A DNA stretch of 22,352 nt, from the IMG/VR virus record IMGVR_UViG_3300007765_000054, positions 1 to 22,352 of that record; one strand, written 5' to 3'. Positions 7,187 to 21,051 of this stretch are shown here, piece after piece (the stretch's first letter is position 1; each line of letters starts with the position of its first letter). This DNA comes from a virus. Under the pieces are notes generated by a model. That model saw only the letters and a program-made list of their open reading frames with translations. It was not told the origin of the DNA and did not search any database. Both the position numbers and the translations under genes were made by a program.

Positions 7187-7218
7187 TTGTGACAAAGAAG
7201 ATCCAGGAGACCCAACTC

Positions 7219-10200
7219 ATGGCAGAGCAAACATTTAGATCCCCAGGTTTTTTCGAGCGTGAAATTGACGCTACAGCGAGAACAACCGAAATAGTAGGTG
7301 TACCAGCAGGTGTTGTTGGTACAGCAGAAAAAGGTCCTGCCTTCGTACCAGTAACGGTAGGGAGCATGACTGACTTCATTAACAAGTTTGGTGATATTGA
7401 TACGAACAGATTCGGTCCATACGCAGTCCAGGCTTTCTTGAGCAACAAGACTGCCCTAACATACATGAGAGTGTTGGGCGCTGGCGCTAATGAAACAACT
7501 ACCGATCTTAACAATACCCTCAAGTATGGAACAGTAAAGAACGCAGGGTTTAAGATAGCACCCAAGCTTTCTCAATGGAACATTGACAAACTTGGAGCAG
7601 TTACAGACGGACAATATTCAGATAGTTGTGTCCAATTCCTTGTTGCGAGGCACTACGTATCAGCATCAGCTGACTATTCCTTCCCACAGTTCGTGGATAA
7701 CCCATCATTCAATTCGAGCGGTGGAGACACAGTAAACCTTGTTCGAGCAGTCATGTTCACCGCGTCTGGTAGCCGGATGCAGATTATGGATGTACCGAAT
7801 ACTTCGAATACAGCAGAGGCCTGGTCTAACACGCTTGATTCTCTTGCCAGAGTTCAGAGATCTACGAACAACAAGTATTTTGGGCTGGTCGTTTCTTCCT
7901 CACGAGGCGGAGCTTACACAAACGAAATTAATAGTCTTCCTGGTGTTCGAATCATGACAGCATCGCTTGATCCTTCTGATGAAGCGTATATTACAAATGT
8001 CCTGAATACCGATCCCCTTAAGTTTTATGAGCACCAGCATCTGCTGTATCTTGACTTTGCTGTTGAAGATGAGCTAGCTAGTATCGATCAAAGTTCAAGT
8101 CCGGATGTGTATCCCGTTGGATTACTTTCTGGTTCTACCTCTAATCTGGCGAATGCGCTAGCCGGCGCCGATAGATATGCACTATCTTCATTCGGCCGCT
8201 TTGACACGAGATACGCCACAGCACGAACACCCCAGATATTCTCGCAGCCTTACGGTGGGCAAGAATACGCTCTTATGTACTTTGAGTCTCTTTCCGATGG
8301 AACATATGGAAATGATAAGGTAAAGATCACCATTGGTAACCTGCGGGCTTCCACGAATGACAATTATCCTTATCCTGAGTTTGAAGTCCAGGTACGAAGA
8401 TTTGATGATTCCGACTTACAGCCTCAGGTTTTAGAGACGTATCCCGCGTGTAATCTTGATCCTTCATCCGAGAACTTCGTTGCAAGAAAAATTGGCGATT
8501 ACAAAGCTCGTTATAACTTTGACGCTGATAATGACGCTGAAAAGAGAATTGTCGTAACAGGTCGTTATCCCAATCTTTCAAACTTCGTTAGAGTTGTGAT
8601 CGCTGATAAGGTCTACAAGCGTGATGTTCCAAAGAACGCATGTCCTTTCGGCTTCAATGGTGTACCAGTTATTAAGACAAATGATACCTTGACTGATGGT
8701 CTTTCTCGACTTGAGGTTAATGGCGTCATATATGGTAACACAAAAACAACAGACGCCTCTGCTGCTGACCCCAACCCTGGACGACTTTGGGGTGACGGGG
8801 TTCGCTCCCCATTAACGGGATCGATTGTTCCTCCACTGCCGTATCGCTTTAAGCTTACACGTGGAGCTGTAAAGAACAATTACTCTGGGTTCAGTGGCGA
8901 CCCCAGCTCTACGGAAATTGTTGATAAACGATTGAACTGGGGTGTTAAGTGGTCTAGATGTCCAGAGACTGGAAGCATGACTAATGCTAATCTTGATGTT
9001 AACGCTTCGTCGATCCCTAACCCGTTGATTAAGTCATACGGTAAGTTCCAGGGCATCATGAAGTTGGATACGTTGGTTTCTGGTTCTGGGGCCGATGCGT
9101 TCAATGGTAATAAGTTCACGCTCGCAAGAGTTGCTCTGGCAGAGATTGGCTCTAATGCCGCAACACTTCTCCAATATATAACTGCTTCTGCTACCGATAG
9201 CATCAAGGAAGCTTGCTACTTAAGAGAAGCTGTTCCCGATTCTCAGAATTATTCTATTCTAGATCCTGATAAGTCGAATTACTATCGCGTTTCACTTGCG
9301 ACCCTAATTCAGTCTAGCTCGGTTAAGTTCAACAGGTTTACTTCGTATACTGCGTTCAACGTTCCGTTCTACGGCGGATTTGATGGTGTGAATATTCTTG
9401 ATAAAGACATGTACTATATGACAGATAGGGCCAGCTCCACCGACGCTAGCTCTGGTGGTCTTACTGGAAAGGCTTCTGATGAGTTCAAGGCCTCTACAAT
9501 CGGAATGGCATCTAACCCAGCTGGTGATGGTCGACTTAACAATAGCATCGCTGCATATCGTAAAGCTGCCGAGATTATGACGGACGCTACGACTACTAGA
9601 ATTAATATTCTTGCGATTCCTGGAATCAGAGATTCATTCGTTACAGATTGGGCGGCTGAGAAGACTAGAGACTATTCTATGGCGATGTATGTTATGGATA
9701 TTCCTGCATGGACAGAGAGCGAAACACGCCTCTTCGGTATGGAAGATAGTTCATTGATCGCTAGCGCGTCTTACTCTGTACCTGATGTTAGAGAAACAGC
9801 AGAACAGTTCGAGAGCAGAGTGTTCGACAACAACTACACTGCGACATACTTCCCTGACGTCTTTATTACAGACTCTAATACAAGCTCGAAGGTTCAGGTT
9901 CCCGCTTCCGTCGCGGTTATGCAGGCGCTTGGATATAACGATAAGGTAGCTTATCCATGGTTCGCACCCGCCGGCTTCAATCGAGGCGGTCTAGGGATTG
10001 TAAGTAATACTGAGGTAAGACTTTCAGCGGCTGACAGAGATGATCTTTATGATGCACGAATTAATCCGATTGCTAACTTCTCGGATGGAAGCTTCGTTAT
10101 CTTTGGTCAGAAGACATGTCAAATGGCGAAGTCTGCTCTTGACAGAGTGAATGTTAGAAGAATGCTACTTGAAGTCAAGAGACAAGTTGTGGGCGTTGCA

Positions 10201-10455
10201 GACAGATTATTGTTTGAGCCCAACACAGATGCTACAAGGGCACGTTTTATCAATCAAGTTACTCCGCTACTTGCCACGATCCAATCACAACAAGGGATTG
10301 AATCCTTCCAGGTGGTCATGGATGGTTCAAATAATTCAGTGGAAGATGTTGAGAACAATCGCTTGAATGGTCGCATCGTCGTCGTACCGACAAGAGCAAT
10401 CGAATTTATTGCGATTGATTTTATCATAACAAACAGCGGCGTATCGTTTGACTAA
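7219..10455 (+). CDS. Tail sheath protein 1, T4 gp18-like
   Basis: Contractile sheath subunit. I choose the ATG at 7219 (1078 residues) over an in-frame GTG at 7189 because AGGAG lies at 7205-7209 and the resulting N-terminus, MAEQTFRSPGFFEREID, aligns with that of the next gene. The N-terminal domain has VPAGVVGTAEKGPAFVPVTV and a FINKFGDID motif typical of sheaths. The C-terminal core (from about 912) has YPWFAPAGF, then INPIANF, VIFGQKT, ALDRVNVRRMLLEVKRQV and RAIEFIAIDFIITNSGV, the signature of the phage tail sheath family. Large domains between about 100 and 850 make it roughly 1.6 times T4 gp18 (659). It is a clear paralogue of the following gene. Confidence 0.93.
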   Translation: MAEQTFRSPGFFEREIDATARTTEIVGVPAGVVGTAEKGPAFVPVTVGSMTDFINKFGDIDTNRFGPYAVQAFLSNKTALTYMRVLGAGANETTTDLNNTLKYGTVKNAGFKIAPKLSQWNIDKLGAVTDGQYSDSCVQFLVARHYVSASADYSFPQFVDNPSFNSSGGDTVNLVRAVMFTASGSRMQIMDVPNTSNTAEAWSNTLDSLARVQRSTNNKYFGLVVSSSRGGAYTNEINSLPGVRIMTASLDPSDEAYITNVLNTDPLKFYEHQHLLYLDFAVEDELASIDQSSSPDVYPVGLLSGSTSNLANALAGADRYALSSFGRFDTRYATARTPQIFSQPYGGQEYALMYFESLSDGTYGNDKVKITIGNLRASTNDNYPYPEFEVQVRRFDDSDLQPQVLETYPACNLDPSSENFVARKIGDYKARYNFDADNDAEKRIVVTGRYPNLSNFVRVVIADKVYKRDVPKNACPFGFNGVPVIKTNDTLTDGLSRLEVNGVIYGNTKTTDASAADPNPGRLWGDGVRSPLTGSIVPPLPYRFKLTRGAVKNNYSGFSGDPSSTEIVDKRLNWGVKWSRCPETGSMTNANLDVNASSIPNPLIKSYGKFQGIMKLDTLVSGSGADAFNGNKFTLARVALAEIGSNAATLLQYITASATDSIKEACYLREAVPDSQNYSILDPDKSNYYRVSLATLIQSSSVKFNRFTSYTAFNVPFYGGFDGVNILDKDMYYMTDRASSTDASSGGLTGKASDEFKASTIGMASNPAGDGRLNNSIAAYRKAAEIMTDATTTRINILAIPGIRDSFVTDWAAEKTRDYSMAMYVMDIPAWTESETRLFGMEDSSLIASASYSVPDVRETAEQFESRVFDNNYTATYFPDVFITDSNTSSKVQVPASVAVMQALGYNDKVAYPWFAPAGFNRGGLGIVSNTEVRLSAADRDDLYDARINPIANFSDGSFVIFGQKTCQMAKSALDRVNVRRMLLEVKRQVVGVADRLLFEPNTDATRARFINQVTPLLATIQSQQGIESFQVVMDGSNNSVEDVENNRLNGRIVVVPTRAIEFIAIDFIITNSGVSFD

Positions 10456-10490: not shown

Positions 10491-13400
10491 ATGGCTGAAC
10501 TTACATTTAAGAGCCCGGGCGTTTCTACCAGAGAAATAGACCTTTCCGGTCCAACATCAGTGGGACCCTCGGGAACACCTGCCGGAGTCATTGGCATGGC
10601 TGATCAGGGACGTGCTTTCGTTCCGATTACAATGGCAACTTTTGCCGATTTTATTGCTGAATTCGGCAATACAGACGGTACAAAATTTGGGCCGATGGCT
10701 ATGAGGCAATGGCTGACATATGCTCAGGCTGGAACCTACTTGCGTACGCTTGGTATCGGTGACGGTAAGAAGCGTAATACAAACGGTTCTGTTACTAATG
10801 CCGGCTTCACCGTCGGTCAGCAGCTGCCAAAGGCGAATGGAATCCTTGGACAAAATGCTTTTGCTGGAACAGCACCAGCGGCGACGCAGAACGGCGGCTT
10901 GGGAAGAACTTCGTTCCTCGCGGTTTGTATGGCAGAACAGAACAGTTCGGGCCTCTTCACAAACGCTGGTCTTAAGGCATCACAACCCGTCCTTCGAGGG
11001 GTCCTTATGGCTCCTTCTGGAGTACTACCAGCGTTAAGCGCTTCAAGAGCGACAACAACTGGTTTTCATGGCGGCGGAAATTTCAGTGGTAATAACACTC
11101 CGCTTGGATCTCCTACGGCTCTTAATTACGCTTGCAGAGAATCATTCGGTTCCGCGGCAGGAGACGATGCGGGTTCAACTCTGGGTGCTGTTGATATCGC
11201 TGGTGGAAAGCAGGAGTTTGTGCTTCTATTAAATGGTCATACTCACACTGATTCATATCCTACAGTAATAACTGCGTCTTTTGATCCTCTTGCCCCCAAC
11301 TATTTTGCGAACGTATTAAATACTGATCCGACGTTATCCCAGAAAGCTGGTCACCTTCTATACGCTCACTACGACATCTTCCCCAACATGGCAGTCCCGA
11401 CAGGTTCGGCGCTAATGTCCTACAATTACAACCCCACCGTTAATGGAACTATTGCTGGGAAGAGTATAAAGTATGAAGATATCGCATTCCTCGTAACTTC
11501 GTCAGCAGGACGTGGAGCTGGGTCTGCAACGATCCCTGACTTTGAAGGGTTTAGTGATCGTTTCCGGACTGCTAAGACTCCGAAGGTTATATCTCAAGCG
11601 TTCGGTGGTAAGCCGAAGGACCTATTTTCTGTGCACTGCCTTGATGATGGTGCGATAGGAAATAAGAGAATTAAGATCTCTATTGAGAATATCGTCAAGT
11701 CTACCAACATTAACAACAAATTTGGAACGTTCGATCTACTTGTACGTGACTATAACGACACAGACGACCTTCCACAAGTTATTGAGAAGTTCCCCAAGCT
11801 TTCTCTTAATCCTCTAGATGAGAGGTATGTCGCTAGAGTGATCGGTGATTATTATCTTTTCTACGATTTCGACAAGCGTGCCGGTTCACAGAAGCTCGTT
11901 GTTGAGGGATCATACCCCAATAAGTCTAACTACATCCGAATCGATCCAGTTGATGCTCTTGATAAGGGACAGATTCCAGCGACTGCTCTCCCATGCGGTT
12001 TCCGTGGAATTCAACACTTGGTCACATCGGCTTCTGCAATCTTCAAGGTAGACTCTGCGGACTTCGCGGTAGGAATTGGATCATATCCTTCGCTTGGTAT
12101 TGTGCAGCCCCCTGTTCCATTCCGTGCTAGCGTTTCTAAGGGTGAAGCACCTAAGAAGAAACTGGCTGGTAATCTTTACTGGGGAGTTCAGTTTGAAAAG
12201 AAGATGCGCGTCGCAACTCCGAATGAGAGTACAGTGAACGATGCTCAGATGGATTCATTCTCGAAGTACTTCCCCAACTATCACCAGACTTATCGTCCTG
12301 CGATGGTCGGAGACAATGCTGGAACAGCTGATAGCGGTGGCACCATTCTTGACTCTGATAGATTCAACAACAATAAGTTTACCTTAGAGAATATCCAGGT
12401 TATTACCACCACGTCTGACCAAGCTGATGCGAATCAGTGGGCAGCTGCTACCTACAAGAGAACGGGTGTGGCCGCCAGCACGATGAATGATATTGACGGA
12501 AGCTCTTCGTCTTCTACAAGGTTGCTTTCTGTATCGAAGGACTTCGGTCTATCCTCAGCAAGAAGATTCTTGAAATATACGTTTATCGCTCAGGGCGGTT
12601 TCGATGGGTTGAATATCCTCGATAAAGAAAAGGCAACAATGTCTTCAACTGCCTGCAAGAGAGAGATGGACGATTCCAACCAGGGCGAGACAAATGGACC
12701 TACAGTTGCAGCGTATCGTAAGGCTCTAGACATCCTTGAAGAGCGCTCAGACGTGAATATCCAGCTTCTTGCTATTCCAGGTATCCGTCATTCGTCTGTT
12801 ACTGATTACGCGATTACGACTGTTGAGGATCGCTTTGATGCGATGTATCTAATGGATATTGAAGCGCAGAATAATCTAGGTAATATTGTGACTGGTTCTT
12901 CCGACCTGATTAGCGTGACAAATACTGTGACTGCATTCACGAGTAGAAACTTGGATTCTTCATTCGCAGCAGCGTACTTTCCTGATGTACTGATGACAGA
13001 GGTTGCAACCGGACAGACTGTTGTTGCACCCCCAAGTGTTGCGGTTCTCGGGGCATTTGGTCTCAATGATCAGGTTGCGTATCCTTGGTTTGCCCCCGCT
13101 GGCTTCACCCGAGGAGCACTAAAGAATGTTACCGAAAGTCAAGTAAAGCTTAATAGGACTAACCTCGACGCTCTTTATGATGCTGATATCAATCCTATCA
13201 CAGCGTTCCCACAATCTAAGGAAGTTATGGTATTCGGCCAGAAAACATTACTCGCCGCGCAGAGCGCGTTGGACCGAGTTAATGTTCGAAGACTACTCAT
13301 CGACATTCGTCGTCAGGTAAGAGCGATTGGAAACACATTCCTCTTCGAGCCGAATAGAGAAGCTACCCTAGCAAGATTCTCAGCTGCTGTTAATCCAATA

Positions 13401-13583
13401 TTAGGTAGAATTCAGCAGCAGCAGGGCCTTGAAAGATTCAAGGTGCAGATTGATGCAACCACAACCACCCAGGCTGACGTGGAAAATAACACGGTACGAG
13501 GTAAGATCTTCTTACAGCCTGTTCGTTCAGTCGAGTTTATATCACTAGATTTTGTGGTAACTAACGCCGGTATGGACATTTAA
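10491..13583 (+). CDS. Tail sheath protein 2, T4 gp18-like paralogue
   Basis: Second sheath protein, 1030 residues, AGGAG at 10476-10480 and 10 bases to the ATG. It matches sheath 1 at the N-terminus (MAELTFKSPGVSTREID, TPAGVIGMADQGRAFVPIT, FGPMAMRQWL), around residue 274 (NVLNTDP in both), in an internal domain (TAKTPKVISQAFGG; LPQVIEKFP; VARVIGDY; EGSYPNKSNYIRI) and across the C-terminal core (YPWFAPAGF at 864; ALDRVNVRRLLIDIRRQV; SVEFISLDFVVTNAGMDI). Regions at about 100-250 and 570-700 diverge, so the copies are old and probably specialised. Both frames are intact and both have good translation signals. Whether they mix in one sheath or form separate parts cannot be read from sequence. 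Confidence 0.93.
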   Translation: MAELTFKSPGVSTREIDLSGPTSVGPSGTPAGVIGMADQGRAFVPITMATFADFIAEFGNTDGTKFGPMAMRQWLTYAQAGTYLRTLGIGDGKKRNTNGSVTNAGFTVGQQLPKANGILGQNAFAGTAPAATQNGGLGRTSFLAVCMAEQNSSGLFTNAGLKASQPVLRGVLMAPSGVLPALSASRATTTGFHGGGNFSGNNTPLGSPTALNYACRESFGSAAGDDAGSTLGAVDIAGGKQEFVLLLNGHTHTDSYPTVITASFDPLAPNYFANVLNTDPTLSQKAGHLLYAHYDIFPNMAVPTGSALMSYNYNPTVNGTIAGKSIKYEDIAFLVTSSAGRGAGSATIPDFEGFSDRFRTAKTPKVISQAFGGKPKDLFSVHCLDDGAIGNKRIKISIENIVKSTNINNKFGTFDLLVRDYNDTDDLPQVIEKFPKLSLNPLDERYVARVIGDYYLFYDFDKRAGSQKLVVEGSYPNKSNYIRIDPVDALDKGQIPATALPCGFRGIQHLVTSASAIFKVDSADFAVGIGSYPSLGIVQPPVPFRASVSKGEAPKKKLAGNLYWGVQFEKKMRVATPNESTVNDAQMDSFSKYFPNYHQTYRPAMVGDNAGTADSGGTILDSDRFNNNKFTLENIQVITTTSDQADANQWAAATYKRTGVAASTMNDIDGSSSSSTRLLSVSKDFGLSSARRFLKYTFIAQGGFDGLNILDKEKATMSSTACKREMDDSNQGETNGPTVAAYRKALDILEERSDVNIQLLAIPGIRHSSVTDYAITTVEDRFDAMYLMDIEAQNNLGNIVTGSSDLISVTNTVTAFTSRNLDSSFAAAYFPDVLMTEVATGQTVVAPPSVAVLGAFGLNDQVAYPWFAPAGFTRGALKNVTESQVKLNRTNLDALYDADINPITAFPQSKEVMVFGQKTLLAAQSALDRVNVRRLLIDIRRQVRAIGNTFLFEPNREATLARFSAAVNPILGRIQQQQGLERFKVQIDATTTTQADVENNTVRGKIFLQPVRSVEFISLDFVVTNAGMDI

Positions 13584-13626: not shown

Positions 13627-14115
13627 ATGCCAGAAACACTATCAGTTACCGATATGTTGCCGAACAAGTTTGAGCCCAAAAGAAAATTCAGATGGGTGTT
13701 CGCAATCGAAGGTATTGACGCATTTTTGATCAAGACGGCCGCTCGTCCCACAATGAACACCGCTGAGGTTGAAATTCCCTTTATTAACTCTACCCGCTTT
13801 ATTGCAGGTAAGACGAAGTTCGACGCTCTGTCAGTAACACTACACGATCCTATTGCTCCTTCGGGCGCACAGCAGGTCATGGAATGGGTTCGTACCCACT
13901 ATGAGTCTGTATCAGGTCGCGGTGGTTATGCTGACTTTTACAAGCGCGACTGCCAGTTAAAGCTTCTCGATCCCGTAGGGACCGTGGTAGAACTCTGGGA
14001 TATGAAGGGTTGTTTCCTCACATCAGCCGGTTTCGGTGATTTGGATTACGGCTCGGAAGACCCTGCTGAAATTGCATTGTCAATCCGTTTTGATAATTGC
14101 GTGCTTCAATACTGA
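13627..14115 (+). CDS. Tail tube protein, T4 gp19-like
   Basis: Inner tube subunit that stacks in hexameric rings inside the sheath. The length, 162 residues, is almost the same as T4 gp19 (163). It has the usual order: a short N-terminus, FEPKRKFRWVFAIEGIDAFL, a beta strand ending in a LSVTLHDPIAPSGAQQVMEW segment, then a C-terminal WDMKGCFLTSAGFGDLDYGS segment and a final SIRFDNCVLQY strand. The strong AAGGAG lies about 10 bases before the ATG, and an intrinsic terminator follows 21 bases after the stop. Placement after the sheath genes is the normal myovirus order. Confidence 0.92.
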   Translation: MPETLSVTDMLPNKFEPKRKFRWVFAIEGIDAFLIKTAARPTMNTAEVEIPFINSTRFIAGKTKFDALSVTLHDPIAPSGAQQVMEWVRTHYESVSGRGGYADFYKRDCQLKLLDPVGTVVELWDMKGCFLTSAGFGDLDYGSEDPAEIALSIRFDNCVLQY

Positions 14116-14240: not shown

Positions 14241-15092
14241 ATGTCAACTGAAAAAGGTGGTCCCACCGAACGAAGTGAAATATTTGGTTCGATGAAAGAG
14301 CACATGCCAGCCAGAAATGTTATGAAAGATGATTTTGGCTTTGAAATTCCTGTAGAGACGGTACCGCTACCGTCGGGTGGAAAGTGTTATGATGCTGATC
14401 ACCCCCTCTCCGGAAAAAATACTGTTGAGATTCGAGCGATGACGGCTCGAGAAGAAGATATTCTTACTTCAAAAGCCCTAATCAAGAAAGGGACAGTAAT
14501 AAGTCATCTCATCAAGTCGTGTATGATTGATAAGAGAGTCGATCCAGACTCAATGCTCGCTGGGGATAGAAATGCCCTGATGGTTGCTCTACGTGTGACA
14601 GGCTACGGCGCTGATTATAACGTAGAGGTTGATTGTCCAGCATGCAGTGAGCGCTCAAAGCAATCTTTTAATCTGGGTGAACTTCCGATTAAGCGGTTGG
14701 AAATTGATCCAATTACAAATGGAACGAATATTTTTGAGGTTAAGCTTCCTGTGACTAAAGCGAAGTGCCGTTTTAAGCTTCTTACTGGTACTGATGAACA
14801 AGATATTATGACGGCGTCAGAGCGCCGTAAGAAGCAGGGACAACGTTCAGAGAATCTTGTAACACAAAGATTGAGATACTCCATTGTCGCTGTAAATGGC
14901 GTGACAGATCGCACGAAGCTCGATATGTTCGCCTCTAGTCTGCCCGCAAGAGATTCGTTGTTTTTGCGCAAGCATATTGATAAAAACGAGCCGGGTATAG
15001 ATATGAAGGCCTGGATGGATTGTCCAGCATGTCTAGAGCACTCGGAGGTTAGACTGCCCCTGGGGGCGGCGTTTTTTTGGCCTGACTCATAG
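14241..15092 (+). CDS. Baseplate hub / tail assembly protein, T4 gp26-like (zinc-motif family)
   Basis: A 283-residue protein of the T4 gp26-like baseplate family. Family signs: VPLPSGGKCYDADHPLSGKN, then EIRAMTAREEDILTS, GTVISHLIKSC and DRNALMVALRVTGYGADYNV. Two CPAC pairs (C132/C135 and C261/C264) probably bind one metal ion, most likely zinc, and hold the central domain together. GAGGTG at 14230-14235 precedes the ATG. The end of the gene reads AAFFWPDS and contains seven T residues; a +1 or -2 slip there would join it to the next reading frame. The position between tail tube and tape measure is where tail assembly chaperones with a frameshift normally lie, so that role is a good alternative or additional function. 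Confidence 0.8.
   Translation: MSTEKGGPTERSEIFGSMKEHMPARNVMKDDFGFEIPVETVPLPSGGKCYDADHPLSGKNTVEIRAMTAREEDILTSKALIKKGTVISHLIKSCMIDKRVDPDSMLAGDRNALMVALRVTGYGADYNVEVDCPACSERSKQSFNLGELPIKRLEIDPITNGTNIFEVKLPVTKAKCRFKLLTGTDEQDIMTASERRKKQGQRSENLVTQRLRYSIVAVNGVTDRTKLDMFASSLPARDSLFLRKHIDKNEPGIDMKAWMDCPACLEHSEVRLPLGAAFFWPDS
15072..15078 (+). other. Probable ribosomal frameshift site (seven T)
   Basis: The gp26-like frame reads GCG TTT TTT TGG and stops at 15090-15092. Moving +1 (or -2) on the T run enters the frame of the next small gene, which is open from 15037 to 15336. The joined protein would continue GLTHSTKEFYLEQIFLL into MYYMGFSY. That linking segment looks like real protein but has no ATG, GTG or TTG start. 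The total would be about 364 residues (+1) or 365 (-2). Confidence 0.6.
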
Positions 15093-15129
15093 TACAAAAG
15101 AGTTCTATTTAGAGCAGATATTTCTGCTG

Positions 15130-15336
15130 ATGTACTATATGGGCTTCTCGTATATAGAAGCCTACAACGTCCCCGTGTGGATTCGACATTGGTTCATTCG
15201 GCGACTCAACGATGAGATAAAGAAATCTAACAAGAACCAATCAACCCACGCGGCACACCAAAATTCCCCTGACGCAAGAGCGATGATGGGAAGATATAGG
15301 TCACAAGTTCCAGCAAAATTACGTAGATTCACATAG
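15130..15336 (+). CDS. Tail assembly chaperone-like extension (probably expressed as a frameshift fusion)
   Basis: From the first ATG this is 68 residues, MYYMGFSYIEAYNVPVWIRH onward, ending in DARAMMGRYRSQVPAKLRRFT. I recognise this kind of short protein after gp26-like genes in T4-related phages: an EQIFLL-YYMGFSY-EAYNVPVWIR-WFI helix pair and a basic C-terminus. The coding signal seems to start earlier than the ATG, since STKEFYLEQIFLL lies in the same open frame at 15091-15129. No Shine-Dalgarno stands before the ATG (only a weak AGAG at 15111-15114). I therefore think most of it is made as an extension of the gp26-like protein through the T run at 15072-15078. Independent initiation at 15130 remains possible. 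By analogy with the lambda G/GT pair it would assist assembly around the tape measure. Confidence 0.65.
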   Translation: MYYMGFSYIEAYNVPVWIRHWFIRRLNDEIKKSNKNQSTHAAHQNSPDARAMMGRYRSQVPAKLRRFT

Positions 15337-15340: not shown

Positions 15341-15356
15341 CTTAGAGGTGTTGGAA

Positions 15357-15605
15357 ATGAATGCAGCTAAAAGACAGTTTCTAAAAGATTGCGCCAGATA
15401 CATCAGCGGTGAAATCGCTGAAATAAAATTGAGCGGATCTGAAAAAACGATTGATTTGTTCGCGCGGACGCTAAGAGAGTCTAGAGCGCTTTATGTGGTT
15501 CTCGAGACGAAGAAGAATATAAGCGATGTTATTCCCGTCTTAGAGTCGAAGAAAAAAGCTGCAAAACTTCTACATGCGAAGACAGGGTTTGTTTGGCCCT
15601 TCTAA
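15357..15605 (+). CDS. Conserved-looking small protein upstream of the tape measure
   Basis: An 82-residue protein. I choose the ATG at 15357 over a GTG at 15348, because AGAGG at 15344-15348 is then 8 bases away. It is mainly helical and charged: KRQFLKDCARYISGEIAEIK, then a TLRESRALYVVLETKKNISD segment, and it ends GFVWPF. I have seen similar short proteins beside gp26-like genes in T4-related phages, with no known function. It has no membrane segment or metal-binding motif. Its location between the putative chaperone and the tape measure suggests a tail assembly role. Confidence 0.72.
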   Translation: MNAAKRQFLKDCARYISGEIAEIKLSGSEKTIDLFARTLRESRALYVVLETKKNISDVIPVLESKKKAAKLLHAKTGFVWPF

Positions 15606-15678: not shown

Positions 15679-18600
15679 ATGCCTGACTCAAAAGAGCTAC
15701 AGAACCAATTAGGAATCCAGCAGCAGATCAATAAACTGCTGAATGAGCGCGCTGCGCTGATGGATGCCCAAGCGAAAAAGCTGACCAGCCAAACGCAGCT
15801 AGCAATACAATTGTGCAAAGCTTTAGAGTGCAAAGATTTAGACCAGGTCGCCGCAAGGCTCGACGAAATAAATAGCGGTCTTCAAGATGCTGCCTCAAAT
15901 GCACAAGCCGCAGCAGACGGTCAGCGAGACGTCGCCGGCGCTATAGATGAAGCTGGGGGCGCCGCCGATGGGACTACCAAAAGCTTTGGCGAAATGGTCA
16001 AGGAGATCAAGACAGCAGACGTTGCTGCCGCATCGGCTGCTAGCGGAATAATCAAAGGATTCAATAGCGCCAAGGCAACGCTAACCATGGTTGTGGGTAC
16101 GTTAAGTTCCATGGCTAGTGGATTCATGAGTGTTGGTACAGCGATTATTTCGATGCCATTCAAGATGCTTGGCGGCTTGGTGGATATGGCGACGACCGGC
16201 GGCGGCGGAGTTAGCGCACTAACTCAAGCTATGGAAAAACTCAGGGGTGAGTTCGGTTCGTTAGCGTCTAATGAGGGTAAGGCCATAATGGATGGCTTTG
16301 ATGACCTTACGTCATCGACTGGTGCCCTCGCGCAGACCGGCCTTAGTGTTAGTGAGGTTTTTGGTCGGGGAAGCGCTGGGATGGCAGCAGCACTAGAGGC
16401 TGTTGCTGAAGTCGCTAGAGCAGCTGGGGCTGCATTCAGTATGCTTTCAGATTCCATTGCTGAAAATGCTGCGATGATGGTTACGATGAACAAGGGCTTG
16501 GGAATGACCAATGAAGCCCTTGCTGAAATGACAAGAAAAGCTCAAAACGCCGGCGAAGATGTCGGTGATATGTTAACCGCCACCGCGAGTATGGCAATTC
16601 AGATGGGCGACAAGTTTGGGGTTTCGAGCAAGATAATCGGTGCGAATATGTCTGCTCTTACTGAAGATGTTGCGAACTTCGGTAATATGAGTGTTAAGCA
16701 GCTTGGTGCAACTGCAACCTATATGGCGAAATTAGGGCTAGAGGCAAAAGACCTCCAGGGCGTTATCAGCAAGTTCGACAACTTTGAAGATGCTGCTGGT
16801 TCTGTTTCTCAATTGAACCAAGCTTTCGGAATGCAGCTTGATACTATGGAGATGATGAACGCTGAGAATCCTGCTGAGCGAATTGACATGATGCGTGATG
16901 CGTTCCACGAGGCTGGCAAGTCAGTCGAAGATATGACTCGACAAGAGAAGGCACTCCTTGCTGAGCAAATGGGTCTATCTGTATCCGCTATGGAGAATGC
17001 GTTAGCCGCAGAAAACCAGGGCGTATCTTATGAGGATCTTGAGGCTGGAGCTGAAGACGCTGAAGAGAACGCTATGTCGCAAGAAGAAGCGATGTCTAAG
17101 CTTGCTGACTCTATTGAGAAAATGACAGAAGGCGGCGGCGGCGGAGTCGAGGGCTTCTTTGATTCGTTCGCTAAGGGGTTCATGAAAGGCCTGGCGTCTT
17201 CCGAGGAATTTCAGGCAGTTATCCAGCAGATTCGTGATTCCTTAAAGGTTGTGTTTCAGTTCGGTGAACAGCTTGGAAAGATGTTTGCTGATCTTATGGG
17301 CGATTTAGGAGTGTGGGACGGCCTTAAAGATCTGTTCGATCCCAAAGACTTGAGAGACCTTTTGGGTATTAACGAGAAGGGCGGCCTAACCGGTACTGGT
17401 CTTTTGGGGATATTCAAACGATTCAAGGATTCGCTGACCGGAAAAGGGACGTACAGTCCTCAGAACATGGCTGAAGATATGGGCAAAGAATTCGAGAAGT
17501 TCTTTGGCAAAAAAGGTCCAGCCATGCAGAAGCTTAAGAACGCGCTCATCAAAGGTATCGAGATGGTCGGGGCGTTTATCGCCGGGATGATACCGTGGAT
17601 CGTTGGAAAGTTTGCGGACATGATTAAGGGAATCGCAGACTATATTAGAAACCCAGATGCAGTTAAAAATGCTGGTGAGAAGGGCATTGGCGGAGCTCTA
17701 GTCGAAGCGCTTTCTGGAATTGGGTCAGCGCTAATAGAGGCAGCTCCAGTTCTTTTAGACGCGATACTGGATCTTCTTAGCGCAGTTTTTGAGAAGCATG
17801 GAGATAAGATCCTCATGGTCGGTGGTGCCATGGCTGCGTTTGTGTTTGGAAAAATGATTTTGACAGGTGCTCTTACTGCCGCCAAGGGCGCGCTCATAAA
17901 GATGGCGACAGATAAACTTATCGGACTGATGGGCGGTGTTACCGACGACGCCGGCAGAGCCAATCAAGGGAATGCTAAATCCACCGGTGATGGTATTAGA
18001 GAAGGTATGGGTGGGCTGGCCGACGGCCTGAAGTGCTTTATAGAGAAAGTTGGCGGAATAGATAAAAAAGATATCGGAAAGGCAGCGATCAATTTAACGT
18101 TGCTGGCAGCTGCAATGATTCCCGCAATGATCTTGTTCGCCATAGGGATAACATTGATGGCGAAGATCTTGTCTTCTGTTCCATTTATGGCTGTCGTCGC
18201 CGCTGTCATTGCGTTGGTAGGAGGGATATGGGCAACTAAGTTCATGGTCGAAACTGCTAACGAGATGCAAGAAGGCCAAATTACAAAGTCTATCGGAAAA
18301 CTCCTCGCCGCAGCTCTAATGATGACAGTCGGTGGAGCTGCTTTCGTAGTTGGCTTGGGGGTCGTCGGTGAAGTGGTCTCACAGGTCGGTTTCGGAAAAA
18401 TACTAGCTGGAACATTCGGCGTAATTCTAATGGCGGCCGCAATCTTTGCGATGGTACCGATGATAAAAGCAGCATCCAAGCTGAACGTGACAAAGAAGCG
18501 TACTCAGAATTTGGTGAAAGCTGGGGCGTTACTGGTTATCGGTGGTAGCGCATTTGCCTTAGGCATCGGTGCTGTTGGCGTCGTAGTTGGCGAAGTTGGT

Positions 18601-21051
18601 TTTGGTAATATTATGAAGGGCCTTATGGGCTTGGTGGTTATGCTGCTCGCAGTTGGCGCTACGGTATTGCTAATTAAGGCTTCTAAGCCAATGCAGAAAG
18701 CCGGCTCTGCAATCGGGCCCATGCTTATGGGCGCTCTTTTCATGCTTGTTGGTGTGGTAGCATTTTTGGGCGCCTTGTGGGTGGCATCGATGATAATAAA
18801 TTCACTTGATATGGGTACCATAGCGATGAGCATGCTTTTCCTTCTTGGAATTGTTTTGTTAACAGCTGCTATCGGTGCGACGGCACTGCTCTTCAATCTT
18901 TATGCCGGTATGGACACAGTCGGTGCGTTGTTGGGTGCATTATTTGTGGCGGTTGGTTTATCTGTGCTCGGCCTGGCGTTCCAGTTATTCCAGTCTGTTT
19001 ATAGTTCTGTTGATTTACCGGGTGTTATTGTCACGATGTTACAGTTAACGCTGGCCATGTTAGCGCTTGTACTTCTTGCTGGAACCAGCGCCCTGGTGGC
19101 ACTGATGATTCCTATTATGATTGTCGGTGGTGTCGGCCTGATCGCCGCGGCTGCGTTCACCTTTGTAGTCTCAAAGACGTTTGCACCGGCGCTGCAAGAA
19201 TTAATGTCATCGATGTCGGGTATTGATGGCAAAGAATTAATGTGGATAGCGATAGGCATGCAGATGGCCATGGACGCGATTATCGAGATGTCGATATCTG
19301 CGAAGTCATTAGTGAAGTATCTTTTCCCGGGTATGATGAAACCGATCGAAGCGGGCTTTAGGGTCGTAAAGAAGATGGCAGATGCTATGCTGGACTCGTT
19401 AGTTCCTGCTCTGCGTATAATCGCTGATATGCCAATCGGGGATCCGAAATTATTCATATTAAAAATCAATGCGTTGCTGAAAGTCTTTGATGCCGTTAAG
19501 CAGATGGGTGACCTTGTTTATAAGATCGCGATGCTTGATGTTTTGGCAAGCTCAGGTGGTGGAGAGTCTGGTGCGATATTAGAAGGCGCAGCTGGCTTTA
19601 TCAATGCTATTTTCGGTGGAGCAAAGGAACTTATCTTTGCGCTTGTAAAGATGTTATCTGTGATGAAAGAGGGTGATATTGCAAAACTCGAAGCGATTGG
19701 TGGAGTTTTGGCTGCGATTGGGAACCTGATTCAAGCCATGCAGCCCCCGCCTGGATTGATGGATGCGATTGCCGATCTGGCTGGTGGTGGATTTATGAGG
19801 TCTGGAGATCCTGAAGGTGCTGCCAGTCTTATGAAGACGTATGGCGACATGATGGGAACCATTATGGGCGCAGTCAAGGAACACATTCCTCCAATGATCG
19901 CCGACATCTTAAAGATTAACATCGGGGATAATCCTGAGATGGCAAGAGTGAAGGCTGAGGTTATAGGAGCAGCAGTATCAGCTGTAGCGAAACTAATCGA
20001 GGCTGTTGGTTCGATAGCGCAGATGTTCATGGATAGAAATGCAAGCCAACAGTCTGGCTGGTTTGTCAAGTCGGGCCCATCGATGGGTCAAACGCTTAGC
20101 GAAATGAAGCCAATATTTACCTCAATATTCAACATGATCAAGGGTAATCTACCGCAGATTATAAAGGCAGTTATAGAAGCAGTACCAGACAATATTGATG
20201 CGAAAGCAGCAGAAGTCAAGGTTAAGCTTGTCGCAATGGCTATGGAAGCCGTGGCCAAATTTGGTGAATCCATCGGTGCGATTGGAGAACTAATGCCACC
20301 CACCAAAACAGCTGGTTGGTTTTCTGCAGGCAAAACCCTACAGGAAAGCTTGGGCGAATTGATGCAAATGATAGCACGTATTGTACAGGCTGTTAAGATG
20401 CACTTACCGTCGCTAATCGAAGCAGTTCTTTCTGTTAAGATCGCCAATCCCGATGCAGCGGTGAAGAAGCTTGAAGTGGTTGGTTTGGCCATGGACGCGG
20501 TGACGAAGTTTGCAGATGTTATAGGTTCTCTTGAGGGGAGTAACTTTGAGGGCGGCGCAAGCATGGCGATTGCAAATATGATGAGTGCTGTGAAGCACCT
20601 GATTTATTGGGATGGTTATTACGATATCGGAGATGTCTTCGAAGCCCTAGCAGATAACACAGGTACCTGGGATGCCGCGCTATTAACGAAGTTTGACCTT
20701 GGGATAGAGGCTCTAACCAAGATGGTAACTTTTGGCGAGAAGATTAATGAGTTATCTGGTTATATGGCGATGTTCGAGGGTGGCGGAATGGCAGCAGCAG
20801 TCACTGAGATGGTCGCTGAGGTTGTGGCTTCAATCGAAGCGCTAAACAGCATAGGCGAAGTAAGCGCTGCAGTTGCGCTTGACAACTTCGCTTCAGCGAT
20901 CGGAACAGGCGATGGGTCCTTCACAATTACAAACGAACCGGTTAATATAACTTTAAACGTTCAGGTAACTATGGACGCCAACAAGGTAGGAAAGGTGTTG
21001 GTAGATAAATCAGTTATGACAACCCCGCTAGCAGCCGCCGGCGGTGAATAA
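15679..21051 (+). CDS. Tail tape measure protein
   Basis: Sets tail length and occupies the tube lumen. At 1790 residues it is the largest gene in the window. Order: coiled-coil N-terminus (about 1-120); Ala/Gly/Met-rich helices; a region at about 273-434 (MTNEALAEMTRKAQNAGEDV; GVSSKIIGANMSALTEDVAN; NQAFGMQLDTMEMMNAENP) that resembles tape measures of other T4-related phages; a Gly linker at about 485-490; amphipathic helices; five tandem hydrophobic repeats at 801-1147; then more helices with three repeats of about 65-90 residues at 1385-1621; and a beta-like end (FTITNEPVNITLNVQVTM). No lysozyme or peptidase motif was seen. Using the usual 0.15 nm per residue, the tail would be about 270 nm long. 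AGGGTGG precedes the ATG. Confidence 0.92.
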   Translation: MPDSKELQNQLGIQQQINKLLNERAALMDAQAKKLTSQTQLAIQLCKALECKDLDQVAARLDEINSGLQDAASNAQAAADGQRDVAGAIDEAGGAADGTTKSFGEMVKEIKTADVAAASAASGIIKGFNSAKATLTMVVGTLSSMASGFMSVGTAIISMPFKMLGGLVDMATTGGGGVSALTQAMEKLRGEFGSLASNEGKAIMDGFDDLTSSTGALAQTGLSVSEVFGRGSAGMAAALEAVAEVARAAGAAFSMLSDSIAENAAMMVTMNKGLGMTNEALAEMTRKAQNAGEDVGDMLTATASMAIQMGDKFGVSSKIIGANMSALTEDVANFGNMSVKQLGATATYMAKLGLEAKDLQGVISKFDNFEDAAGSVSQLNQAFGMQLDTMEMMNAENPAERIDMMRDAFHEAGKSVEDMTRQEKALLAEQMGLSVSAMENALAAENQGVSYEDLEAGAEDAEENAMSQEEAMSKLADSIEKMTEGGGGGVEGFFDSFAKGFMKGLASSEEFQAVIQQIRDSLKVVFQFGEQLGKMFADLMGDLGVWDGLKDLFDPKDLRDLLGINEKGGLTGTGLLGIFKRFKDSLTGKGTYSPQNMAEDMGKEFEKFFGKKGPAMQKLKNALIKGIEMVGAFIAGMIPWIVGKFADMIKGIADYIRNPDAVKNAGEKGIGGALVEALSGIGSALIEAAPVLLDAILDLLSAVFEKHGDKILMVGGAMAAFVFGKMILTGALTAAKGALIKMATDKLIGLMGGVTDDAGRANQGNAKSTGDGIREGMGGLADGLKCFIEKVGGIDKKDIGKAAINLTLLAAAMIPAMILFAIGITLMAKILSSVPFMAVVAAVIALVGGIWATKFMVETANEMQEGQITKSIGKLLAAALMMTVGGAAFVVGLGVVGEVVSQVGFGKILAGTFGVILMAAAIFAMVPMIKAASKLNVTKKRTQNLVKAGALLVIGGSAFALGIGAVGVVVGEVGFGNIMKGLMGLVVMLLAVGATVLLIKASKPMQKAGSAIGPMLMGALFMLVGVVAFLGALWVASMIINSLDMGTIAMSMLFLLGIVLLTAAIGATALLFNLYAGMDTVGALLGALFVAVGLSVLGLAFQLFQSVYSSVDLPGVIVTMLQLTLAMLALVLLAGTSALVALMIPIMIVGGVGLIAAAAFTFVVSKTFAPALQELMSSMSGIDGKELMWIAIGMQMAMDAIIEMSISAKSLVKYLFPGMMKPIEAGFRVVKKMADAMLDSLVPALRIIADMPIGDPKLFILKINALLKVFDAVKQMGDLVYKIAMLDVLASSGGGESGAILEGAAGFINAIFGGAKELIFALVKMLSVMKEGDIAKLEAIGGVLAAIGNLIQAMQPPPGLMDAIADLAGGGFMRSGDPEGAASLMKTYGDMMGTIMGAVKEHIPPMIADILKINIGDNPEMARVKAEVIGAAVSAVAKLIEAVGSIAQMFMDRNASQQSGWFVKSGPSMGQTLSEMKPIFTSIFNMIKGNLPQIIKAVIEAVPDNIDAKAAEVKVKLVAMAMEAVAKFGESIGAIGELMPPTKTAGWFSAGKTLQESLGELMQMIARIVQAVKMHLPSLIEAVLSVKIANPDAAVKKLEVVGLAMDAVTKFADVIGSLEGSNFEGGASMAIANMMSAVKHLIYWDGYYDIGDVFEALADNTGTWDAALLTKFDLGIEALTKMVTFGEKINELSGYMAMFEGGGMAAAVTEMVAEVVASIEALNSIGEVSAAVALDNFASAIGTGDGSFTITNEPVNITLNVQVTMDANKVGKVLVDKSVMTTPLAAAGGE
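18079..19119 (+). repeat. Five tandem hydrophobic repeats inside the tape measure
   Basis: At protein level, units lie at about residues 801-869, 870-942, 943-1005, 1006-1078 and 1079-1147. Units 2 and 3 are clearest: VGGAAFVVGLGVVGEVVSQV then GFGKI, against IGGSAFALGIGAVGVVVGEV then GFGNI. Each unit has two membrane-like helices around a short polar turn. The DNA itself is diverged, so this is an old duplication. Confidence 0.65.
19831..20541 (+). repeat. Three tandem repeats near the tape measure C-terminus
   Basis: Units at about residues 1385-1473, 1474-1558 and 1559-1621 share the pattern M-x(n)-I-x-x-x-(V/I)K-x-(H/N)-(I/L)P followed by a Val/Lys-rich stretch and then A(M/V)xAVxKfxexIGsi. 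The first two end with SGWFVKSG or AGWFSAG and a TLxExL-type helix start. Confidence 0.55.

Follow-up and report, generated by a model that had tools for sequence, protein, structure and literature searches.

Background

Tail assembly chaperones of T4-like phages were reportedly identified in 2022 by Vladimirov, Gautam and Davidson (Virology 566:9-15), and from the title of that work, taken with the gp26 and gp51 sequence results given below, we infer that the genes concerned are gp26 and gp51; the chaperone idea for the T4-like gp26/gp51 family was already published in 2022 and is not new here. The review PMC3004832 lists gp26 and gp51 as hub assembly chaperones, gp51 being essential and of unknown function, and two further papers, each citing Vladimirov et al. 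2022, attribute to T4-like phages one short and one long chaperone gene (PMC10885494) and poly-T -1 sites in these chaperone genes (PMC12846349). According to PMC5009743, phages use -1, -2 or +1 shifts at this locus and the G-T shift is conserved 'except T4'; the same paper gives a -1 shift for lambda and a very likely +1 shift in the tail chaperone locus of the haloarchaeal myovirus HSTV-2, which belongs to another host domain and is likened to the present locus by that published description, not by sequence.

The locus considered here lies in a stretch of 22,352 nucleotides of DNA from an uncultured marine phage (IMG/VR record IMGVR_UViG_3300007765_000054), the whole of which is called the window below. 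With the T4-like chaperones it has in common the PF12322 family, the place in the tail gene order and a predicted short and long product, whereas the T4-like genes are cited for poly-T -1 sites and the window and its relatives have a +1 relation at TTY TTT TGG, with a Shine-Dalgarno-like (SD-like) element at a fixed 25 bases. It is also like lambda gpG/gpGT, by gene layout and not by comparison with the gpG sequence, in having a short and a presumed frameshift-extended product encoded between tube and tape measure, the shift being -1 in lambda and predicted to be +1 in the window.

Gene order and features of the locus

The window contains a contractile-tail gene block that consists of a sheath-like pair, the tube gene, the gp26-like gene, the +1 frame, an 85-codon frame and a 1790-codon frame. 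The features used in this analysis are the following.

7189-10455 and 10491-13583: tandem pair of long genes resembling tail sheath (1088 and 1030 aa)
13627..14115, + strand: tail tube protein, upstream neighbour (phrog_4542 tail tube, E 1e-28)
14241..15092, + strand: gp26-like gene, short product (probable TAC-N / gpG equivalent), 283 aa (PF12322, phrog_150)
15042..15049, + strand: Shine-Dalgarno-like element TCGGAGGT within the gp26-like gene (anti-SD match, synonymous constraint)
15054..15069, + strand: possible small hairpin (6 bp) in the GC-rich spacer from the SD-like element to the slip site (weak)
15072..15078, + strand: predicted slip site TTT TTT T (second Phe codon TTT in 63/63 unique sequences)
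15078..15085, + strand: TGG CCT (mostly then GA) past the slip codon (invariant in 80/80)
15079..15336, + strand: +1-frame extension (T domain), 85 aa, GLTHSTK...LRRFT (conserved peptide, +1-frame codon periodicity, -1 profile)
15090..15092, + strand: frame-0 stop codon TAG of the short product, read from the sequence
15348..15605, + strand: 85-codon open frame in the interval between T domain and tape measure (likely start ATG 15357, SD -7.1 kcal/mol)
15679..21051, + strand: probable tape measure protein, 1790 aa, downstream neighbour (length and position)

The second gene of the tandem pair (10491-13583) matches tail sheath families in a profile search; the first (7189-10455) is sheath-like as judged by eye. 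The first 574 aa of the tape measure candidate give weak matches only, to families of no tail function, so that its identity is taken from its size and place. As the earlier note had proposed, the gp26-like gene and its downstream frame occupy the position of a G/GT-type pair, between the phrog_4542 tube and the 1790-aa open frame, the latter being a probable tape measure. The annotated order is tube - hub - tape measure in LIS04, tube - hub - putative tail protein in SP-15 and tail completion - hub - tape measure in immuto. Family profile searches returned no convincing match for the 85-codon frame at 15348-15605.

Sequences compared

From a scan of IMG/VR, the best 80 of 104 relatives were kept. 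One of these (L072), which ends before the 3' end of the gene, was left out of the site analyses, giving 79 loci and the window, 80 sequences in all; three others (L027, L063 and L069) are truncated past the site, which keeps them out of the 77 uncut sequences, and three (L001-L003) do not differ from the window anywhere in the gene. Codon-position and Phe counts refer to 63 sequences unique over -100..+100 of the site, and the SD, constraint, RNA-fold and start-codon counts to 63 sequences unique over -150..+60, with 690 bases upstream. The distant phage records examined were 13 of 21, 6 of 64, 2 of 52 and T4 of 1339.

The gp26-like protein

The 283-residue product of frame 0 matches PF12322 T4_baseplate (E 1.3e-15; 58.2 bits, above the curated cut-off of 24.5) and phrog_150 baseplate hub (E 6e-20). 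AlphaFold2 gave a confident model of it (pLDDT 84.1, pTM 0.78), with which Foldseek retrieved 62 viral models of baseplate hub or gp26-like proteins at E <= 0.001 and nothing from the PDB at that threshold. The tail assembly chaperone of HK97 (2OB9) appeared at Foldseek rank 50 with a weak E of 7.4, and it was the top row in VIA-align (Z 5.0 over 89 residues, rmsd 4.8), tied with a protein of unknown function (Z 4.9) and with a Z of a size that, according to the tool's own note, can be due to chance; this likeness of the model to 2OB9 is a hint, not proof, of a chaperone fold. The proposal that the gp26-like protein is the equivalent of gpG is supported, since it agrees with the gene order, with the homology to T4 gp26 and gp51 and with the similarity of the -1 relatives' extensions to the gp51 C-terminus.

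The downstream frame and the T domain

The +1 frame is open from 15037 to 15336 (99 codons) after a stop at 15034-15036, as had been noticed from the sequence alone. The absence of an ATG, GTG or TTG before its protein-like part was likewise confirmed: the first such codon, ATG 15130, is codon 17 of the extension and lies inside the conserved domain, and its SD pairing is -2.2 kcal/mol versus -6.9 to -8.0 for the starts of the gp26-like, tube, second sheath and tape-measure genes.

The frame relation is more than chance, because each of the 77 uncut sequences, the window among them, keeps the +1 frame open for 75-95 codons beyond the junction, because differences downstream follow the codon positions of the +1 frame (pairwise differences of 0.29/0.152/0.562 at positions 1/2/3; 220 pairs) and because the peptide is conserved from the junction onwards. 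Upstream, the variation keeps to frame 0, with a non-majority fraction at codon positions 1-3 of 0.225, 0.134 and 0.482 (-150..-30, 63 sequences). In 21 chosen members, conservation runs from the first post-junction residues (GL) nearly to the last (RRF, with an invariant F84), with the consensus GL(T/S)...KE.(Y/F)LE..F.LMYY.GF(S/T)Y.E.YN.P...R.WFI.R.N.E(I/L)K...LRRFT.

A sequencing error or a decayed gene would account for the missing start codon and for nothing else; the arrangement is kept, with purifying codon-position patterns, by the 63 unique IMG/VR sequences and by isolates of several phage groups, and the probability of such an origin is practically nil.

The T domain could also be a separate gene with an internal start that uses GGAGGT (15044-15049) as ribosome-binding site, and in 52 of the 63 unique sequences no other part of the last 690 bases is as strongly SD-like as that region. 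When a start proper to the downstream gene was looked for among the homologues, no ATG, GTG or TTG was found at or before extension codon 6 in 40 of the 63 unique sequences (51 of the 77 uncut). The other 23 of the 63 do have a +1-frame start codon in this range, some of them a GTG or TTG 11-14 bases past GGAGGT, so internal initiation is possible in those sequences. For the window, a separate ATG, GTG or TTG start of the T domain was rejected, codon 17 being the first available, and residues ahead of it (G1, L2, L11 and F15) are invariant in the 21 members; CTG, the second codon of the extension, could in principle serve as a rare start. An internal start would moreover leave unexplained both the invariant TTT T and the canonical -1 heptamers of the -1 relatives, and we regard it as very improbable. 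A T domain made only as a fusion to the gp26-like protein appears the better reading of the alignments.

With PF20546 (DUF6760) the window scores 16.4 bits, below the cut-off of 27, and the profile reaches 13 of the 21 members with E-values no higher than 0.05 (lowest 3.2e-5). The phrog_634 profile has no match in the window, a sequence search of the PDB gave no row for the two-frame fusion and none for T4 gp51, and a PDB search with the extension profile gave two rows, both at chance level.

The predicted slip site and the probable direction of the slip

Near the end of the gp26-like gene, TT[T/C] TTT TGG CCT is present in frame in 80 of 80 sequences (the 79 IMG/VR loci, drawn from the best 80 of 104, and the window), as TTTTTTTGG in 64 and as TTCTTTTGG in 16. 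It is followed by GA in 76, by AA in two and by GG in one, the remaining sequence ending there; what follows the slip codon reads W-P-D in frame 0 and G-L-T in frame +1. In the 63 unique sequences, the first Phe codon is TTT in 49 and TTC in 14, the second Phe codon (F279) is TTT in 63 of 63, against a gene-wide Phe pool of 462 TTT to 237 TTC, and P281 is CCT in 63 of 63.

When the 88 testable columns of the gp26-like gene (conserved, with a degenerate amino acid) were ranked by their departure from pooled codon use, the five most constrained were S268, P281, V270, E269 and F279; constraint on synonymous use thus clusters within the last 16 codons, in the slip site on the one hand and in the SD-like element on the other. 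Coding in two frames can account for the fixed T of CCT; for that of the second TTT it cannot, if the slip occurs at this codon. The conserved slip element would consist of the second Phe codon and the T of TGG.

The earlier note had pointed to the run of seven T at 15072-15078, ahead of the gp26-like stop (TAG, 15090-15092), both of which are present as described, and it had correctly reasoned that a shift of +1 or -2 joins the two frames and that -1 does not. The slip site does seem to lie there; the seven T, on the other hand, are not the key to it, since 14 of the 63 unique sequences read TTC TTT TGG. Comparison of the homologues thus shows the slip site and the frame relation to be kept and the seven-T run to be kept in only part of them.

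These same 14 sequences bear on the direction. A -2 frameshift of the kind known from tail assembly in phage Mu reaches the same frame with one more residue, and at TTT TTT one tRNA-Phe can re-pair two bases back, as it could in the window itself, where that codon is TTT; the argument against it therefore comes from the relatives. With TTC as first codon the codon two bases back is UCU, which tRNA-Phe is not expected to read, and in the Streptomyces phages (CTG TTT C) it is TGT, whereas the +1 codon is UUU in 63 of 63, so that tRNA-Phe could re-pair by +1 and not by -2. Of the two shifts that had been put forward, +1 is therefore the one favoured by the relatives and the Mu-type alternative is not supported; we consider it highly unlikely. 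The slip would be a +1 movement of tRNA-Phe at the second TTT, from 15075-15077 to 15076-15078.

A slip of the polymerase on the T run, giving mRNAs in the second frame, would suit the seven T of the window and the T runs of the -1 relatives. It is rejected because the long T run is not conserved while the frame is: at this place 16 of the 80 sequences have no more than TTCTTTT, and CTGTTTC stands in the Streptomyces phages. Transcriptional slippage accordingly seems to us extremely unlikely. The GGGGG run at 15062-15066, which resembles the slip site of phage Mu, was also rejected as the place of the slip, as it is not conserved in the relatives.

The base ahead of the Phe pair is never T: the third base of the preceding codon is G in 50, C in 20, A in 10 and T in none of the 80 sequences. 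Elsewhere in the gene, T makes up 38.6% of the third positions in codons for A, S, T, G and N, and it directly precedes 75 of 398 Phe codons (19%). A T before the Phe pair would create T TTT TTT, a classical -1 site.

Distant relatives with +1 and -1 arrangements

The +1 arrangement was found in ten distant phage records, at a Phe-Phe, Phe-Leu or Leu-Phe codon pair, and none of the ten has a T before the site. The sites are TTT TTT TGG in Mel-JY01 and RM378, TTT CTT TGG in immuto, TTT CTA in LR756508, TTC TTT CGT in GXN1, TTT TTT CAC in SP-15, TTT TTT AGT in LIS04 and CTG TTT C in the Streptomyces phages LuckySocke, BRock and pSt2308. A -1 extension is present in 15 phages (RAS14, XacN1, Atu_ph07, LR756511, Phosso, PA5oct, XaC1, 121Q, C48C1, GAP32, Vibrio 2.275, P-SSM2, S-PM2, HTVC008M and KVP40), all 15 of which have NNT TTT TTY, that is T TTT TTY. 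Records of like state, +1 or -1, group together in a tree of 36 rows, with at least two changes between states; as the tree needs only two, the association of site type with frame does not represent 25 independent events.

The extensions of both kinds appear to be related in sequence. A profile of the -1 extensions, searched against very small sets, recovers every one of the 58 distinct window-clade peptides (E 1e-12 to 4e-5) and nine of the ten distant +1 peptides at E <= 0.0013, RM378 being at 0.16. The window-clade profile, also in a very small set, reaches the majority of the -1 and +1 extensions, with E from 1e-10 to 0.06, and misses pSt2308 (0.14), RAS14 (0.28), PA5oct (0.59), the gp51 end (3.1) and RM378 (4.3). 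The link between all extensions rests on the -1 profile, because the window-clade profile misses the gp51 end, RM378 and PA5oct.

The deposited records of Mel-JY01, immuto and SP-15 give the downstream piece as a hypothetical protein and that of S-PM2 gives it as 'gp51', whereas those of GXN1 and LIS04 leave it out. In the open-licence PMC papers searched, no +1 member of the gp26/gp51 family was found in print. In Alishewanella phage Slicko01 (L104:1399-2353), a +1 frame is open behind the PF12322 gene and its peptide SPESISKMSVSKYDFYISALEK is gp51-end-like by eye; this record has no recognisable slip site and no phrog_634 match.

The two T4 genes

T4 has two PF12322 genes, gp26 and gp51, and each of the seven other records searched alongside has one. 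The gp26 protein ends at the domain end with FFELL and gp51 is about 48 residues longer; phrog_634 matches residues 147-246 of gp51. Among these eight records phrog_634 has matches in six, namely T4 gp51 and the -1 extensions of S-PM2, P-SSM2, KVP40, HTVC008M and C48C1, and none in RM378 or Slicko01; at E up to 1 it also matches in 2 of 14 control genomes. A note in the KVP40 record likens its downstream gene to the gp51 end, and the S-PM2 gene is named gp51. In a very small set, the -1-extension profile matches the gp51 end at 4e-6 and the whole of gp51 at 2e-5 and leaves gp26 unmatched (0.16). The tree pairs gp26 with gp51, next to KVP40 (93/79, then 82/90), and flags the branch to gp51 as long.

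At the end of T4 gene 26 (L113) the Phe-Phe pair is retained as TTC TTT GAG and the slippery run is lacking, which looks like decay of the frameshift site following duplication.

A Shine-Dalgarno-like element at a fixed distance

GGAGGT (15044-15049) is separated from the second Phe codon by 25 bases, and this element or its counterpart stands at an equal distance in the 63 unique sequences, columns -29..-24 being gapless. The G of GAG is present in 62 of 63 and GT is nearly always fixed; S268-E269-V270 is encoded as TCG GAG GT, with TCG in 48 of 61 Ser and GAG in 62 of 63. In 52 of 63 sequences nothing within the last 690 bases matches the anti-SD better than the region -31..-22, which has a mean of -10.0 kcal/mol (63 sequences) versus -4.9 for synonymous shuffles, of which 6.6% on average are as good. 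Together with the slip codon and the following Pro, this SD-like GGAGGT is the most synonymously constrained part of the gene, which is apparently a new observation. Similar elements stand at -33 in immuto and LR756508, at -34 in the Streptomyces phages and at -40 in Mel-JY01, and no strong SD-like element was found upstream of the site in SP-15, LIS04, GXN1 or RM378. In P-SSM2 and S-PM2, GGAGGGA precedes the -1 site by about 10 bases; an SD about 10 bases upstream is the placement in known -1 cassettes.

In the bacterial prfB +1 frameshift, the slip occurs at CUU UGA, with an SD about 3 bases ahead of it and the A site occupied by a stop codon. The window resembles prfB in its slip codon of the form NTT before a T, in its predicted +1 re-pairing and in its upstream SD-like sequence, and differs in having a sense codon, TGG, in the A site versus UGA, and in the 25 bases that separate the SD-like element from the slip codon versus about 3. 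The distance of 25 bases seems too long for direct SD action.

The spacer is rich in G+C at third positions (0.74 vs 0.42) and its predicted hairpin is more stable than those of synonymous shuffles (mean z -1.79; p <= 0.05 in 51% of 63), six other stretches giving p <= 0.05 in 5-11%. Versus G+C-matched shuffles only 3 of 63 are significant (mean z -0.67), and the hairpin is not claimed as a real element, since G+C content accounts for most of its stability. The folded spacer would leave 7-9 unpaired bases in 35 of 63, with registers that vary among sequences. Downstream of the slip site, no conserved structure was detected in the 40 of 63 sequences tested (mean z -0.33 over 7-67 and -1.01 over 7-97, 9 of the 40 below -2 in the latter), RNAalifold predicted no structure and Rfam gave no match.

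A speculative reading is that TCGGAGGT, the 22 GC-rich hairpin-prone bases and TTY TTT TGG CCT form a new kind of +1 stimulator, in which a remote SD would be brought to about 7-9 bases from the slip codon by a small hairpin; we put this forward as a doubtful suggestion. If it were true, one chaperone family would have three solutions: -1 with an SD about 10 bases upstream in the cyanophages, +1 with a remote SD, and duplication in T4. The constrained SD-like element at a fixed 25 bases, the feature of the locus that is most out of the ordinary, provides a concrete, testable puzzle on ribosome slipping.

Proposed mechanism and consequences

The frame relation, the sites of the relatives and the family membership together argue for a +1 variant of the lambda G/GT system, and the downstream frame is very probably expressed by a programmed +1 frameshift that gives the long form of a tail assembly chaperone of the gp26 family. 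Most ribosomes would read the gp26-like frame to its stop and produce the short chaperone. A minority would slip by +1 with tRNA-Phe on the second TTT of TTY TTT TGG, the tRNA re-pairing to the overlapping UUU, and would continue with GGC CTG, the product being a fusion with the T domain at its end. If the roles are as in lambda, the shared part may coat the tape measure protein and the T domain may recruit the tube protein. What speaks against this reading is that the usual helpers of +1 frameshifting are absent or odd, the A site having no stop codon and the SD-like element being 25 bases off.

Programmed +1 frameshifting would explain why a large group of marine phages has a reading frame that seems to lack a start, and it would correct the annotation of such genes, the downstream piece being the extension of a chaperone. 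As one chaperone family uses -1, +1 or two genes, it offers a natural experiment on the change of frameshift direction.

Minor observations concern the wider occurrence of the family and the rest of the window. A search of plasmids with the SP-15 gp26-like protein gave no match. One relative (L089 / L036) comes from a contig of 108,871 bases that has been placed in a Halobacteriovorax MAG (PBIO01000013.1); of 290 genomes from that MAG's phylum, 1 contains PF12322, on the MAG's own phage-like contig, and the placement may be a pointer to the host or a binning error. At about 121-199 of the window, the first open frame encodes a strongly acidic, repetitive stretch, EEEAEGEEEEAEGEE.
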